64,000 nt of DNA, taken from NCBI GenBank assembly GCA_016926475.1, contig JAFGON010000057.1, positions 1-64,000 of the forward strand. Reading direction: 5' to 3'. Positions 12,099 through 17,569 of this stretch are shown here, in pieces. A program made the translations under genes and the position numbers. How positions within the stretch are numbered: position 1 is the first letter of the stretch; each line of letters starts with the position of its first letter. The stretch comes from a candidate division WOR-3 bacterium. Its GTDB lineage: Bacteria; SDB-A. The notes under the pieces were generated by a model. It did no database searches, had not been told where the DNA came from, and saw only the letters and a program-made list of their open reading frames with translations.

Positions 12099-12629
12099 AT
12101 GAAATATGATATATTGAGAAAAATAACAATTTTTAAATATCTATCCGATTCAGAGATAGATGTTTTGGCAAACCAACTCACCGAAAAGAATTTCGACGAA
12201 GCCGAAGTCGTGGTTCAGGAAAAGAACAACGGTCACGAAATGTACATAATAATAGAGGGCGAAGCTCAAGTTCTCCTTCACAGGGAAGATACGCTTCTCG
12301 TTTTAGCCAAACTTTCACCCGGAGGTTTTTTCGGAGACATGTCTTTGCTCACCGACCTGCCGAGAAGCGCCACGGTTAAAACTTTGACAAAATCCAAAAT
12401 GCTCGTGTTTAAAAAGGAACTCCTTGAAGAAATTATGGAAAAATTCCCTTCTACAGCGGCAAAATTCCTGAAAGCCATATCGGAAGAACTCTGCGAAAGA
12501 ATTCAAAGCACCAACGAAAACGTCGAAACTCTTTTTCTGATAAACAAAGCAATTGTGGACAATGAGCAGTTCAGGAGGCTGTATATAGGCGCTCATAAAC
12601 AAACGCCTTTTGGCTCATCTTCCTCTTGA
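12099..12629 (+). CDS. Cyclic-nucleotide-binding domain protein
   Basis: A 176-residue protein with a single cNMP-binding (CAP_ED) domain at about 10-130 and no helix-turn-helix or kinase part. The phosphate-binding cassette FGDMSLLTDLPRSATV is clear and holds the conserved Arg; the ribose-contacting Glu of Crp is Asp here. The last 45 residues are helical with a Ser-rich tail. Such stand-alone domains usually regulate a partner protein; which one is unknown. An AGGAGG precedes the ATG, and the gene lies directly behind tRNA-Lys, probably on the same transcript. It overlaps the next gene by 1 nt. Confidence 0.86.
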   Translation: MKYDILRKITIFKYLSDSEIDVLANQLTEKNFDEAEVVVQEKNNGHEMYIIIEGEAQVLLHREDTLLVLAKLSPGGFFGDMSLLTDLPRSATVKTLTKSKMLVFKKELLEEIMEKFPSTAAKFLKAISEELCERIQSTNENVETLFLINKAIVDNEQFRRLYIGAHKQTPFGSSSS

Positions 12630-14038
12630 TGTTTTTAATTCTCCTCGTCTTATCCCAATACACTTCTTTTCACCCTCACGCCGATTTTCTCAGCCCGGAT
12701 ATCGGGAAAAGATGGCGTATAGGAGTTAACGCGCTTTCTTTTTACAGCCAAAACGAAATCGACGATTCACTGGACTATTTTTTCTCAGGCGGCCTTCTTC
12801 TGGAATGGAAATTGAGTTCGTTCGTCAAAACTTCTGGTGGAGCTTTCATTGAAAACGCTGATGAAAAGGAAGTTTCCCCTTTGTTTTATTTGACATTGGG
12901 AGGACCGGGAGGGGCTTTTATAGATCTCGGTGGAAACTTTTCTGCGTCAGACCGCCATGTTTCAGCGTCCGTTCTCGCCGACATTCAGAAAAACAGAGTA
13001 TTAGGAATCAATTCCTCGATAGGATACAACTGGAGAGATTCATCGTCTTTTCCGTTTATCTCCTCGAGGTTCTACTTCACAAAAAACTTCAACAAGACCT
13101 ACTTTGAAATTGAAAAACAGTTCCATGGAGGTGCTCCGTTTTTTTCTTACGAAAACACATGGGCAAAACTCGGCGTTCTCGCCGATTTTTTTGGAAATTT
13201 CTCCCTGGAAATCCTCACTACCGTGCGGCTCGGCGCAAACTCACCTCCTGGAGTCCCGGACTGGACTCTCGGGGCAAAAATATTTTCAGGTTTATTTAGA
13301 GACCAGTCTTCAGTCAGAGGATCTGGTTCACTCGCCGGAAACGTGAGATCTCAAGAAGGACAGCCTGTGGCAAACGCCTCGATCATCATGTTCTCCGACT
13401 TCAGGGACCAGATTTCAAGCGACAGCTCTGGTTATTTTCAATTCTCCGAAATACCCTCGGGTTTCATCACAATAGATGTCGCGACAGAAGGTTTCAAGTC
13501 GGTCAGCATGCCTGTATCAATCAGGAAAAATCAAAATACATACTTAGAGATAATGCTGGAACCATCCTCTAAAAACGTCACTTACGATCTCTCAACTTTC
13601 GACTGCCTCACGGGACAACCGGTGTTTTCGAGAATCAGAGGTTTTGACAATCTATTCACCGACACACTTCTTACAGTAGATGAAAACGAAACGCTGTTTA
13701 TTGAAAGCGAAAATCGTGTTACAGCAGTCGTTGTCCCTCAAAAGAACCTCGTCGTCAAAGTGCCCATGATAAGCGAACAAACTCCTTTTATATTTGAAAA
13801 AACCGACTTCGAAGATTCGTCTCTTTCGTCATCCGGTATGATAAAATTAATGGATCTGAAATACATCCTCGAGTACTACCCTGAAATCATTCTCGCTTTC
13901 GAAGGTTCTGCGGATTTTTCGGAAACCGTGAGAAACTCGCTTTTTGCTTTTTTCTCTCTCAACAACCCCACGAAATTTAACCAAACTCAAGAAGACTCAA
14001 TCCTAAAAATCTACCTCCAGACATCAGGGCAAAGATAA
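12629..14038 (+). CDS. Outer-membrane-type protein with carboxypeptidase-regulatory-like domain
   Basis: I do not recognise the full architecture. A signal-like hydrophobic N-terminus (about 1-17) is followed by about 215 residues with alternating aromatic/hydrophobic strands that look like a small beta barrel or beta-rich domain. Residues about 230-310 form a CarboxypepD_reg-like domain (LAGNVRSQEGQPVANASIIM, then SDSSGYFQFSEIPSGFITIDV). The last 70 residues (MDLKYILEYYPEIILAFEGSADF) faintly recall an OmpA-type peptidoglycan-binding domain. The ATG at 12629 overlaps the previous stop as TGATG; a TTG one codon upstream is possible. It is co-transcribed with the cNMP-binding protein. Confidence 0.76.
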   Translation: MFLILLVLSQYTSFHPHADFLSPDIGKRWRIGVNALSFYSQNEIDDSLDYFFSGGLLLEWKLSSFVKTSGGAFIENADEKEVSPLFYLTLGGPGGAFIDLGGNFSASDRHVSASVLADIQKNRVLGINSSIGYNWRDSSSFPFISSRFYFTKNFNKTYFEIEKQFHGGAPFFSYENTWAKLGVLADFFGNFSLEILTTVRLGANSPPGVPDWTLGAKIFSGLFRDQSSVRGSGSLAGNVRSQEGQPVANASIIMFSDFRDQISSDSSGYFQFSEIPSGFITIDVATEGFKSVSMPVSIRKNQNTYLEIMLEPSSKNVTYDLSTFDCLTGQPVFSRIRGFDNLFTDTLLTVDENETLFIESENRVTAVVVPQKNLVVKVPMISEQTPFIFEKTDFEDSSLSSSGMIKLMDLKYILEYYPEIILAFEGSADFSETVRNSLFAFFSLNNPTKFNQTQEDSILKIYLQTSGQR

Positions 14039-14101
14039 ACCGGAAAAAAACCGGCGGAACACCCTATATTTAAAAGCGTTTAAACAAAGTCAGAGATATT
14101 C

Positions 14102-14130
14102 TTGTATATTTTTTAACCTTGTGATATATA
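14102..14130 (+). promoter_or_regulatory. Candidate promoter for the REC-DUF4388 operon
   Basis: TTGTAT at 14102-14107 and TATATA at 14125-14130, spacing 17 nt. It leaves a leader of about 100 nt before the ATG at 14238, in which I see no known riboswitch; there is a weak pairing possibility around 14150-14185 only. The rest of 14039-14101 shows nothing beyond a 4-bp CCGG hairpin. Confidence 0.35.
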
Positions 14131-14237
14131 TTTAATTGTTAAAGCTCGTTGGTGTTTTAGAAACCCGCGAACAATCGAAGAGAGGGTCAGGATATTTTGA
14201 GTATTTTTTTTTCTGAGAAAACGGCGGTCTATTAGAA

Positions 14238-15311
14238 ATGAAAGGTTTTCCTTTCTCGGAGAAAAACAAACGGGTCATGGTTGTAGACGATGAACAAGAT
14301 ATCGCCAACATCGTCGGAGAAAAATTATCTGAATCAGGTTTCGATATAACAACCGAATGGGACCCTCGGATAGCAATAAAAAAACTGTCCGAAACTTCTT
14401 ACGACTTGGTAATAACAGACCTTAAAATGCCTCATTTGGATGGTTTCCAACTCATGGGTTGGATTAGAGACTACTCTCCCCTCACAAAAGTCGCAATGAT
14501 AACTGCATACGGCTCTCCTTACGCCCATAAAACCGCTGTTCAAAAAGGCGCTGTTTTTTACATCGAAAAACCTTTCGACCTCGATGATCTGGCTAAAAAA
14601 GTCGAAGAAATACTCAAACCTCCACGTGAATTTGAGGCTAAAATTGAATCGATATCGTCGTTTGATTTAATCCAGATCATAGCTCTTACAGGCGGAAAGA
14701 GGAGGGTGTCTGTCTCTTCATCCGACAAGACCGGTGAAATGTACATAAAAAACGGAAAACTGGTATACGCCCACGCAGAAGGCAAATTCATGAAAGAAGC
14801 TTTCAACCGGATGATCTTCTGGGATAGCGGCGTCTTTAACGTATTGAGCTGGCTTGAACCGCCGGAGGAAGGAGAATACCTCGACGTAAACCTGCTGTTG
14901 CTGGAAGCGACGAAAATTTTAGATGAGAAAAAAGAAGGTATAAATCCATTAGACGATTTAGAACCTGAACCCATTCAAGAACAGAACAACAGGGACAAAA
15001 ACTGCTATGAAAACATCAAAAAATCCCCAGATATCGAAGTTTACGCCAGGCTTGACAAAAACTGGAAAATGATAGAATCCAACAACGAAGCTGTAATCCA
15101 AAATACGGTGAAAGTGGCTTTTTTTCTCAATGAATGGGGAGATAGAGCACAGAAATCTCTATGCCTCGGAAGTCTTGAGGAAATTGTCCTTCACGTCTCT
15201 GGAAGAGAGCTTTGGATCAGAATTTGCTACAGAGAAAACCACATTTTTCTTTTAACTCAAAATAAAAGCCATAAAAATACACCTGGATACAACAATGGAA
15301 TCGATTGCTGA
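14238..15311 (+). CDS. Response regulator: REC + DUF4388 (PATAN-like) protein
   Basis: A 357-residue signalling protein. The receiver domain (about 10-125) has all phosphorylation residues: Asp17-Asp18, phospho-acceptor Asp61 (ITDLKMP), Thr89 and Lys111 (EKPF). A DUF4388 domain follows at about 135-235 (FDLIQIIALTGGKRRVSV; GEMYIKNGKLVYAHAEG), a module tied to receiver domains in deltaproteobacteria and cyanobacteria. After an acidic linker, the last 90 residues (from about 265) look alpha/beta, possibly roadblock-like. There is no DNA-binding domain, so output is probably by protein contact. It overlaps the next gene by 17 nt; no cognate kinase is adjacent. Confidence 0.88.
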   Translation: MKGFPFSEKNKRVMVVDDEQDIANIVGEKLSESGFDITTEWDPRIAIKKLSETSYDLVITDLKMPHLDGFQLMGWIRDYSPLTKVAMITAYGSPYAHKTAVQKGAVFYIEKPFDLDDLAKKVEEILKPPREFEAKIESISSFDLIQIIALTGGKRRVSVSSSDKTGEMYIKNGKLVYAHAEGKFMKEAFNRMIFWDSGVFNVLSWLEPPEEGEYLDVNLLLLEATKILDEKKEGINPLDDLEPEPIQEQNNRDKNCYENIKKSPDIEVYARLDKNWKMIESNNEAVIQNTVKVAFFLNEWGDRAQKSLCLGSLEEIVLHVSGRELWIRICYRENHIFLLTQNKSHKNTPGYNNGIDC

Positions 15312-15894
15312 TATTGAAAAATCACTTGGCCAGATTAAGAGTATAAAAGGTTTTTCAATATTCGATCTGACCGGAAAGCCCATCCATTCGAATTCCCCGA
15401 TCAAAAACGGCTCTGATCTGGGGAGATCGATAGTAATCCTCTGTGACGCTCTTAAAAAACAAGAAGCGAAGAATGATTTGATAACCTGGAAATACTCAGA
15501 CGGTATGATTTACCTAAAAGGCTTTCGAAACGGTTTTTTCATGGCAGTCACAAGCGAAAAATTCGAGGAGGATGCCACCATTAGATTAATTCACGATTCA
15601 GCAAAAAAAATTGAATCATACATCACAAGTACCTCCGAAAAAAAACCCCCCGAATCTTTGTTGACAGAGAGTGAGCTTAATGAGATAGTCAGAAAGTTGA
15701 GAAAATGCGCGGTTGAAATTGAAGGACAATGGATCGGATGGTATTTCGACCAGCTCGTTCTGGATTTGATTGACATCGATCAAGCTGGAAAATACGATCT
15801 CAAGAATTTGATCAAATATGTATCGGAACATTTAAGCGGCAGCGAAAAGAAAAAAACTTTCATAGAAAAAGCACTTAATATCATAGGAGAGTGA
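15295..15894 (+). CDS. Roadblock/LC7-like protein, unknown role
   Basis: A 199-residue soluble protein. Residues 1-110 have the helix-strand-strand-helix pattern of roadblock/LC7 proteins (KGFSIFDLTGKPIHSNSPI, ITWKYSDGMIYLKGF, FFMAVTSEKF), the fold of MglB-type GTPase regulators and dynein light-chain homologues. The remaining 90 residues are helical and of unknown type. The family call rests on pattern only. It overlaps the REC-DUF4388 gene by 17 nt and is followed after 6 nt by the PorV-like gene. No Ras-like GTPase (MglA type) is in the window. Its partner is more likely the DUF4388 proteins; that is inference. Confidence 0.7.
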   Translation: MESIADIEKSLGQIKSIKGFSIFDLTGKPIHSNSPIKNGSDLGRSIVILCDALKKQEAKNDLITWKYSDGMIYLKGFRNGFFMAVTSEKFEEDATIRLIHDSAKKIESYITSTSEKKPPESLLTESELNEIVRKLRKCAVEIEGQWIGWYFDQLVLDLIDIDQAGKYDLKNLIKYVSEHLSGSEKKKTFIEKALNIIGE

Positions 15895-15900
15895 TAAAAA

Positions 15901-16848
15901 ATGAAGTTCAAAGGCATCTTGGCTTTTATAATACTGATTTTTATTTTCCAATCTTTACTTTTTGCGGGGATCACCGATTGGTATGAAAAGACTTTCGAGA
16001 AGGAAGAATCCGGTATCGGAATGGCTTTTTTAAAACTGCCCATATCTGCAAAACAAATTGCCATGGGCGGAGTAAGCACTTCTGTTTTTGAGGGAGAAGG
16101 AGGAATTTACGGCAATCCCGCAACTTTACTGACAAAAGATCCTGAAAAGAAGATAGTATTTACGCATCAAAATCTTTTCCAGGGAATACACAATGAATTC
16201 GCCGGCATTCTCATTCCAGGAAAAAAAATGGCTATGGCATTTTCAACCAGCGGCCTTTTCATAGACGGTATAGAATACAGAACTGGTCCGGGAGAATCCG
16301 AGGGCGATTTCAGCGCGTACGATTTTTCTGCCTCCATGTCAGCGGCTTACAATCTTTACAGAGACATGTCAGTTGGAGTGAGGACCAAGATCATTCATGA
16401 AAGAATATTCGAGAGCACGACGACGGTATACGCTTTCGATTTCGGGGTTTTCTATTTTCCTTTTGAAAGGTTGAAGTTCGGAGCGACGATTGAGAATTTG
16501 GGTCCGAAGTATTCCCTGAAAAAAGATTCCGAAACCCTTTCAAGACTCCCTACGTCTTGGAGAGTAGGCTTATCGGCGGATATGCCTTCTTTTTGGAATC
16601 TGCGTGAGATAATAGCTGTTGACGCATGGAAATCTCCAGACGTCAGGATGAGATTTGACGTTGGAGCGCAGATAACTCACCCCAGCAGGTTTTCATTGAG
16701 ATTAGGAGGAAAATTCAACTACGACAGTCAATCCTTTACCGCAGGTTTCGGTTACGTATGGAAGAGCATTTCGCTTGACTACGCTTTTGCGCCATACTCA
16801 TCGGACCTCGGTCAGGCTCACGTCGTGACATTGACGCTTTCGATATAG
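15901..16848 (+). CDS. PorV/PorQ-family outer-membrane beta-barrel protein
   Basis: A 315-residue protein with a signal peptide (about 1-21) and amphipathic strands throughout, ending in a strand with terminal Ile. The N-terminal AFLKLPISAKQIAMGGVSTS and GIYGNPATL segments are the recurring signature of PorV/UPF0164 proteins of the FadL-like barrel fold. In Bacteroidetes PorV delivers type IX secretion cargo to the attachment complex. A protein with a type IX-like sorting domain is encoded at 23067, so secretion by such a system is plausible. It lies between the roadblock-like gene and a DUF4388 gene, with AGGAGG for the latter following its stop. Confidence 0.82.
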   Translation: MKFKGILAFIILIFIFQSLLFAGITDWYEKTFEKEESGIGMAFLKLPISAKQIAMGGVSTSVFEGEGGIYGNPATLLTKDPEKKIVFTHQNLFQGIHNEFAGILIPGKKMAMAFSTSGLFIDGIEYRTGPGESEGDFSAYDFSASMSAAYNLYRDMSVGVRTKIIHERIFESTTTVYAFDFGVFYFPFERLKFGATIENLGPKYSLKKDSETLSRLPTSWRVGLSADMPSFWNLREIIAVDAWKSPDVRMRFDVGAQITHPSRFSLRLGGKFNYDSQSFTAGFGYVWKSISLDYAFAPYSSDLGQAHVVTLTLSI

Positions 16849-16861
16849 TAAAGGAGGTCAA

Positions 16862-17569
16862 ATGGCTGCTTTGAGCGGTAAACTCACGGATTTTGAAATA
16901 CCCACTATTCTACAATTCATCAAAATGAGCAACAAAAACGGTATTTTAAAAATTTCCTCAGCCAAAACCAACGGAGAAATTCATTTCAAGGATTCTTCCA
17001 TCGTCTACGCGATTGACGGAGACGAAAACAGCGGGGAAGTCGCTTTGTTCAACCTATTCCAGCTGAAAGACGGAGCTTTTGAATTTGTCCCTTCCGAAAA
17101 CATTCTCAACAGTCACTTCGACCTTCCAATAGATAACGCATACCAATCGCTCCAGTCGCAGTTAAAAGAATGGGAAGAAATTACCAGAGCGATACCTGAC
17201 TTAAATCTGTCTGTTGGATTGATTTCAGATCCAGCGGTTAAAGAAGTAAAAATAACTCCGCCCCAATGGATCATAGCAGCTCAAGTCGACAACTTGAAAA
17301 GTCTTAAAGACCTTTCCGCATCCACCGGTTTTTCACAGCTCGAAACAGCAAAAATAGTATATTCGCTTATTCAGAACGGGCTTGTAGAAGTTTCGAAAAA
17401 AACCGTAAAAGAAGATAGTTCCTCAGAAATTCCAAGAATGGAAGATCAAGTAGATGAAGATTTCGAAGAAGAAGATGACGAAGAAGCAAAACCCATTGGA
17501 AAAGAGACGGATGAAGAAAGATCAAGAAGAATATCGAGAAGAAAACATAAAAAAGGATTTTTCAGATAA
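16862..17569 (+). CDS. DUF4388 (PATAN-like) domain protein
   Basis: A 235-residue soluble protein. The N-terminal 95 residues are a DUF4388 domain (GKLTDFEIPTILQFIKMSNK; GEIHFKDSSIVYAIDGDENSGEVALFNLF). The middle (about 130-185) looks like a winged helix (LKDLSASTGFSQLETAKIVYSLIQNGLVEV), as in some Deinococcus-Thermus and cyanobacterial relatives. The end is very acidic and then Arg/Lys-rich, probably disordered. A strong AGGAGG precedes the ATG. It shares its domain with the REC-DUF4388 gene two genes upstream, suggesting that both belong to one signalling pathway. Confidence 0.86.
   Translation: MAALSGKLTDFEIPTILQFIKMSNKNGILKISSAKTNGEIHFKDSSIVYAIDGDENSGEVALFNLFQLKDGAFEFVPSENILNSHFDLPIDNAYQSLQSQLKEWEEITRAIPDLNLSVGLISDPAVKEVKITPPQWIIAAQVDNLKSLKDLSASTGFSQLETAKIVYSLIQNGLVEVSKKTVKEDSSSEIPRMEDQVDEDFEEEDDEEAKPIGKETDEERSRRISRRKHKKGFFR

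Follow-up and report, generated by a model that had tools for sequence, protein, structure and literature searches.

In a few model bacteria, roadblock proteins and PATAN regulators determine cell polarity, and the way in which kinase signals enter these systems is poorly known. PATAN is presumably the domain that Pfam lists as DUF4388 (PF14332), and both names are used here. In Myxococcus xanthus, the roadblock protein MglC is bound by RomR and itself binds MglB, a contact that MglA-GTP disrupts (PMC10329633); two PATAN proteins are among the candidate partners of the MglA effector SgmX, and were not pursued there (PMC11580455). PATAN-receiver proteins of Synechocystis interact with PilB (PMC7690835, PMC10519157), and the occurrence of PATAN genes in the neighbourhood of mglA and mglB is on record (PMC4316618, citing Makarova et al. 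2006). The subject of this analysis is an operon of similar parts in a 64,000-nucleotide stretch of DNA from a candidate division WOR-3 bacterium (assembly GCA_016926475.1, contig JAFGON010000057.1, positions 1 to 64,000), referred to below as the window. Four of its genes encode, in order, a response regulator with receiver and PATAN domains (gene D), a protein of predicted roadblock fold (gene E), a PorV/PorQ-family protein (gene F) and a second PATAN protein (gene G), and in related genomes a PATAN-histidine kinase is encoded directly before gene D. The operon unites kinase, receiver, PATAN and roadblock domains at one locus. In the window species the kinase has apparently been lost, a natural knock-out in which fast-changing partners tell which proteins work together.

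The RomR/MglC/MglB system with MglA of M. xanthus combines a receiver-bearing regulator, small roadblock proteins and a small GTPase (PMC10329633), and a GTPase with an MglB-like gene is present here too, elsewhere in the genome. The locus differs from it in that the regulator has PATAN and possibly its own roadblock domain, a PATAN-kinase lies beside the regulator in relatives, and a PorV-family gene is part of the operon. Cyanobacterial PixG, PixE and LsiR likewise unite PATAN and receiver, with output by protein contact (PMC7690835, PMC10519157), whereas here the receiver precedes PATAN, an extra C-terminal domain is present and no chemotaxis-like genes were seen adjoining. PATAN is linked to MglB homologues in the loci beside mglA/mglB (PMC4316618); in contrast, no GTPase was found in the present operon and its roadblock protein is detectable by predicted fold only. 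The Streptomyces conservons CvnA-D also hold a histidine kinase and a roadblock protein in one operon (PMC4316618), but they include a GTPase and no response regulator, while here a response regulator is present and no GTPase was found. In a search of open-library literature, neither a receiver-PATAN-roadblock protein nor a PATAN-kinase paired with a roadblock protein was found described, and there was no co-mention of DUF4388 and roadblock, of PorV and MglA, or of type IX secretion and WOR-3; DUF4388 was mentioned there in one paper, on nitrite reductase judging by its title. The linkage of PATAN and MglB genes is already published, and the locus is a new arrangement of known parts.

Gene order and the missing kinase

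The comparison set for the phylum consisted of four genomes: that of the window (G000, a 2.15 Mb draft in 106 contigs, 100% complete, with the window on contig C57 of 72,410 bases), two of the same genus (G001 and G002) and one of a second genus (G003). All four share the gene order A, B, D, E, F, G, H (Table 1), with the kinase between B and D in three, and this conserved order exceeds chance expectation. Identity of the window proteins to those of the other three genomes was 72-87% for A, 31-58% for B, 53-59% for D, 28-45% for E, 51-68% for F and 58-82% for G. Genes D/E, E/F and F/G are spaced by -17, +6 and +13 bases, respectively. An earlier sequence-only reading of the window had proposed a system of four packed genes comprising a receiver, two DUF4388 proteins, a roadblock-like protein and a barrel. 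Open reading frames, Pfam, NCBIfam and structure model agree with that composition, and the gene order on which the proposal depended is present in all four genomes. The four genes are not the whole of it, since genes A and B lie upstream (12099-14038) and the PATAN-histidine kinase adjoins in three of the four genomes.

In all three relatives (G001, G002 and G003) a protein of 346-369 amino acids is encoded directly before gene D. The one member scanned against Pfam matched HATPase at 78.8 bits and HisKA at 26.4 bits, just below the cut-off of 26.9, and H131 is invariant among the relatives. The N-terminal domain of the kinase gave no match in a PF14332 scan; by profile comparison it matches the DUF4388 domains of genes D and G (hhalign probability 90%, E 1.6e-6). 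A kinase profile scored 626-668 bits in the orthologues of G001-G003 versus at most 82.6 bits in the window genome, whose 21 matches are mostly ordinary kinases, and this profile search turned up no kinase orthologue, either in the window or elsewhere in its genome. Searches of the gap at 14039-14237 for a kinase remnant (tblastn, blastn) gave background scores only. A two-component partner kinase beside the regulator was found in the three relatives and not in the window. The kinase occupies this position in the second genus as well, so its loss in the lineage of the window seems the simplest reading of these gene contents. An assembly error is a possible cause of the missing gene, against which stand the 199 gap bases, devoid of kinase likeness, and the lack of a kinase orthologue in the rest of the assembly.

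Predicted domains of genes E and D

Structure prediction for gene E gave a model with a mean predicted local distance difference test (pLDDT) score of 77.3, in which residues 2-114 form a helix, two strands, a helix, three strands and a helix. The best 50 rows of a Foldseek search (best E 7.9e-6) were roadblock/MglB entries together with dynein, axoneme, Ragulator and Rag complexes. VIA-align gave Z 14.9 with an Asgard roadblock protein (9jue; root-mean-square deviation 2.3 over 112 residues) and Z 13.9 with Thermus MglB (1j3w; 2.6 over 115 residues). As modelled, residues 1-116 have the roadblock fold, as the sequence-only reading had supposed for this product. Searches of Pfam, NCBIfam and PDB sequences gave no roadblock evidence for gene E, and its single Pfam hit was sub-threshold. 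The C-terminal part (~124-199) is helical, with 18 of 76 positions invariant in the four genomes versus 22 of 116 in the roadblock part. A gene E profile search of 386 genomes matched five, namely the four of the phylum and G309 (weak, 20.8 bits over 64 residues).

Gene D matches Response_reg (PF00072, 1.7e-24) and DUF4388 (PF14332, 4.4e-11, 43.3 bits, cut-off 25), and PF14332 also matches Synechococcus, Thermus and Deinobacterium controls. The phospho-acceptor D61 is kept along with D17, D18, T89 and K111, all invariant in the four genomes. Residues 250-340 align with the dynein roadblock light chain 3l7h at Z 10.3 over 87 residues, in a model with a mean pLDDT of 48.7, and the first 18 of the best 50 rows in a structure search with the C-terminus were roadblock, dynein-chain or Ragulator/EGO-type entries. 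These matches suggest that the C-terminus may be a second, shorter roadblock domain. Profile comparison of this C-terminus with gene E, and with a second receiver-DUF4388 protein on contig C21 (see below), yielded nothing.

Evolutionary rates in the kinase-less lineage

Rates were compared by a relative-rate test with G003 as outgroup, in which changes in the window lineage were counted against those in G001 and then those in G002 for 10 genes and 5 domains. Three genes of a cluster on contig C47 (see below) served as controls unlinked to the operon. Gene E changed fast in the kinase-less lineage, with 38 v 8 changes against G001 (p 9.7e-6) and 40 v 11 against G002 (p 4.9e-5), and it did so in both its roadblock part (20 v 5, 20 v 7) and its C-terminal part (17 v 3, 19 v 4). 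The counts suggest fast change in the gene D receiver as well (19 v 5, p 0.004; 21 v 6, p 0.004). Neither gene F (34 v 22, p 0.11; 28 v 26) nor gene G (6 v 8, 6 v 8) was significantly accelerated. Counts were 10 v 6 and 10 v 10 for gene A, 33 v 29 and 32 v 44 for gene B, and 23 v 31 and 19 v 35 for gene H, the last in the opposite direction (p 0.03). Two of the C47 controls gave 8 v 10, 14 v 11 and 20 v 22, 20 v 23. Apart from gene E and the receiver, nothing among the genes and domains compared was significantly faster in the window lineage.

Branch-length ratios were 3.37 for gene E, 3.10 for the receiver, 2.10 for the control C47_RB1, 1.71 for the gene D C-terminus, 1.49 for gene D as a whole and 1.15 for gene A, with the remaining genes and domains outside E at 0.49-0.81. 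When receiver and gene E were taken together and compared with pooled controls, a comparison that excludes the C-terminal domain and linkers of gene D, the counts were 57 v 13 against 156 v 148 for G001 (p 3.6e-6) and 61 v 17 against 153 v 174 for G002 (p 5.4e-7). Since gene E, and less surely the receiver, sped up where the kinase is gone, the acceleration is read as a sign that kinase, receiver and gene E are one functional unit. From the natural knock-out, the core would seem to be the roadblock protein, probably together with the receiver; the PorV barrel shows nothing comparable. Judged by their rates of change, genes F and G are read as constrained by something other than the kinase/receiver/E unit.

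Proposed mechanism and alternatives

The best reading, by analogy with RomR/MglC/MglB, is that kinase, receiver-PATAN-roadblock regulator and roadblock partner would make up one contact-output core resembling that system. We assign a probability of about 0.5 to the wider proposal that the operon is a two-component signalling unit with output through a protein scaffold, not DNA, and with an MglA-like GTPase and/or a pilus-type ATPase as the likely partner. Ancestrally, the PATAN-histidine kinase would phosphorylate the gene D receiver, and phosphorylation would alter the binding of the roadblock and PATAN domains of gene D to gene E. The putative D-E complex would then act on a partner nucleoside triphosphatase whose gene lies outside the operon. 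The likeliest candidate is the MglA-like GTPase together with the MglB-like protein, and a pilus-type ATPase (presumably PilB) might be reached through that GTPase or directly. In the window species, with the kinase lost, the receiver has kept its phosphorylation residues and may use another kinase or be drifting. The domain make-up suggests output by protein contact, in keeping with the sequence-only reading. The accompanying claim of no DNA-binding output is uncertain, as residues ~127-188 of gene G show a weak MarR-type winged-helix likeness (E 0.0086 at best among natural proteins; the match to a designed helical-repeat protein was better, 2.6e-4).

Several points weigh against the proposed unit. 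The structure models of genes D and E were each built from three sequences, and that of gene D is poor overall (mean pLDDT 48.7). The fold check of the gene D C-terminus suggested by the sequence-only reading came out mixed, with roadblock entries ranking first (Z 10.3) in this poor model and Rag GTPases and unrelated profilins coming next, the profilins from Z 8.4. Gene E has no Robl_LC7 match in Pfam, and its profile showed no likeness to the C47 and C21 proteins suspected of being roadblock proteins. A Pfam scan of genes A, B, D-G and the relatives' kinase revealed no GTPase, and none was recognised by eye in gene H. With regard to rates, gene D as a whole was not significantly accelerated (41 v 29, p 0.15; 41 v 27, p 0.09), and neither was its PATAN domain (8 v 7, 7 v 9) or its C-terminus (11 v 12, 10 v 8), and the control C47_RB1 (14 v 13) reached 17 v 8 against G002 (p 0.07) and had a raised branch ratio of 2.10. 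After correction for the 15 genes and domains, each compared twice, only gene E remains significant and the receiver does not; the split into domains was made after the whole-gene results were known. The loss of the kinase is a single event, and fast change after it could be adaptation to a new kinase.

Of the other explanations, control of type IV pili by kinase, D and E, acting through PATAN and a PilB-type ATPase without MglA, is unlikely. PATAN regulators do bind PilB in Synechocystis (PMC7690835, PMC10519157), and T2SSE-family ATPases, presumably of pilus type (PilB or PilT), are above cut-off in all four phylum genomes, with seven matches in the window genome of which five exceed it. Two roadblock domains would be superfluous for such a route, the PATAN domain of gene D is among the parts that were not accelerated, and no pilus gene was recognised by eye beside the operon. 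We consider it quite unlikely that the D, E and G proteins govern the PorV-like barrel and hence surface secretion, which was the possibility raised by the sequence-only reading. The barrel gene lies between E and G in all four phylum genomes, and the window genome carries type-IX-like parts (10 C25-peptidase matches and 65 sorting-domain matches), with a C25-peptidase gene directly before its best PorV-family gene, on contig C29. Furthermore, in two genomes outside the phylum (G132 and G269) a PorV-family gene is found near a DUF4388 gene, and the adjoining proteases look sorting-domain-bearing by eye. Gene F reaches 120.1 bits with the PorV/PorQ family model NF033709 (cut-off 90) and falls below the curated equivalog cut-offs of PorQ (79.8 of 220) and PorV (29.7 of 250); the C29 gene comes closer to PorV (132.4 of 250) and is also below, so the cut-offs alone are indecisive. 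Gene F is one of six family matches in the genome (four over the family cut-off), and neither F nor G was significantly accelerated after kinase loss. By eye, no further genome among the matches listed has an F+G pair, and with multi-copy genes chance is a possible cause of such pairs. Finally, cytoplasmic proteins would need a bridge to an outer-membrane barrel, and none was found. The barrel is best regarded as a constant neighbour, with little evidence for it as an output.

An extended version, in which the putative roadblock domain of gene D pairs with gene E (as in Ragulator or MglC/MglB) and phosphorylation controls the resulting platform, which positions an MglA-type GTPase beneath a dedicated PorV-family barrel, is very unlikely; if true, a two-component signal would set the cell-surface site of secretion or gliding. 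Distinctly improbable, too, is a transcription unit shared for expression reasons only, with gene G as a DNA-binding regulator. Consistent with such an arrangement, gene H, which we take to be DUF1015-like and which probably has an unrelated function, is just as constant a downstream neighbour, gene G contains the weak winged-helix-like segment, and the rates of F, G and H do not track that of E. Arguing for a closer relationship, genes D, E, F and G overlap or almost touch, and the order has been kept despite 28-58% identity to the most distant genome (genes B and D-G).

Possible targets encoded elsewhere

The sequence-only reading had noted the absence of an MglA-like GTPase, which holds for the operon and not for the genome. 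On contig C67 (1150-2234), a Robl_LC7 protein (30.5 bits, cut-off 23; 65.9 of 200 with the NCBIfam MglB model) adjoins a small GTPase (Arf, 30.2 bits, cut-off 22.3) that is MglA-like by eye. Robl_LC7 is over cut-off in all four phylum genomes, the GTPase neighbour having been read in the window genome only. The genome contains several possible targets, none linked to the operon.

Other roadblock-like and DUF4388 proteins were observed in these genomes. On contig C105 (11720-12121; L153:3721-4122), a 133-amino-acid protein with a sub-threshold Robl_LC7 match is encoded directly before a large gene that appears peptidase/barrel-like by eye. Contig C21 (45628-46725; L132:5629-6726) encodes the second receiver-DUF4388 protein, whose C-terminal stretch looks roadblock-like by eye and whose gene adjoins an NtrC-type regulator and a kinase (by eye); contig C351 of G003 (L148) holds two relatives of this protein and a stand-alone copy of its C-terminal stretch. 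The cluster on contig C47 (4218-6598; L131), present in all four phylum genomes (L145, L146, L147), consists of a DUF4388 protein followed by two roadblock-plus-helical proteins (by eye) and is placed after a lipoate-ligase-like gene in three of the four. The last two proteins of this cluster have no Pfam match in the window genome, and no roadblock structure was found with the profiles of the C47 and C21 proteins, which are roadblock-like by eye only.

Operon features and additional observations

Table 1. Features of the operon and its immediate neighbours in the window.
Feature	Position	Strand	Evidence and remarks
Gene A, cyclic-nucleotide-binding-domain protein, 176 amino acids	12099..12629	+	PF00027, 7.1e-18
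Gene B, probable envelope protein (by eye), 470 amino acids	12626..14038	+	carboxypeptidase-regulatory-like domain PF13620, 1.6e-11
199-base gap, site of the PATAN-histidine kinase in 3/3 relatives	14039..14237	.	no remnant found
Gene D, response regulator, 357 amino acids	14238..15311	+	receiver 13-122; DUF4388/PATAN 135-232; possible short roadblock ~250-342
Gene E, roadblock-fold protein, 199 amino acids	15295..15894	+	roadblock 1-116 (model); conserved helical C-terminal part ~124-199
Gene F, PorV/PorQ-family protein, 315 amino acids	15901..16848	+	NF033709; outer-membrane barrel by family
Gene G, DUF4388/PATAN protein, 235 amino acids	16862..17569	+	PF14332, 9.1e-16
Gene H, presumably DUF1015-like, 418 amino acids	17627..18883	+	same position in 3 relatives

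Genes A and B share 4 overlapping bases. A promoter scan gave one promoter-like match of 9/12 in the gap at 14081 (+), with 19 matches in the region vs 8.6 in shuffles, and a terminator scan of the gap (14039-14237) found no terminator-like site on the + strand. Residues 139-168 of gene A, 30 in all, are identical in the four genomes, far above the rest of the protein.

Among the 386 genomes, profile matches numbered 151 for gene F and 100 for gene G, the latter scoring 58.4 bits with PF14332 (cut-off 25) in the window. Gene G has an acidic linker and a basic tail by eye. Outside the phylum, an F+G pair was seen only in G132 and G269 among 28 regions around top matches; this pairing was set aside, as it represents one family (f130) and chance pairs are expected by an uncomputed estimate. 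Relatives of gene G outside the phylum lie near protease genes with sorting-domain-like C-termini in four genomes (L232-L235, by eye).

The record LKUE01000308.1, labelled 'Desulfuromonas sp. SDB', has stretches identical to G003 and groups with the window's phylum, so that its species label looks wrong. NCBI places 'Desulfuromonas sp. SDB' in Thermodesulfobacteriota, at odds with the grouping observed here.

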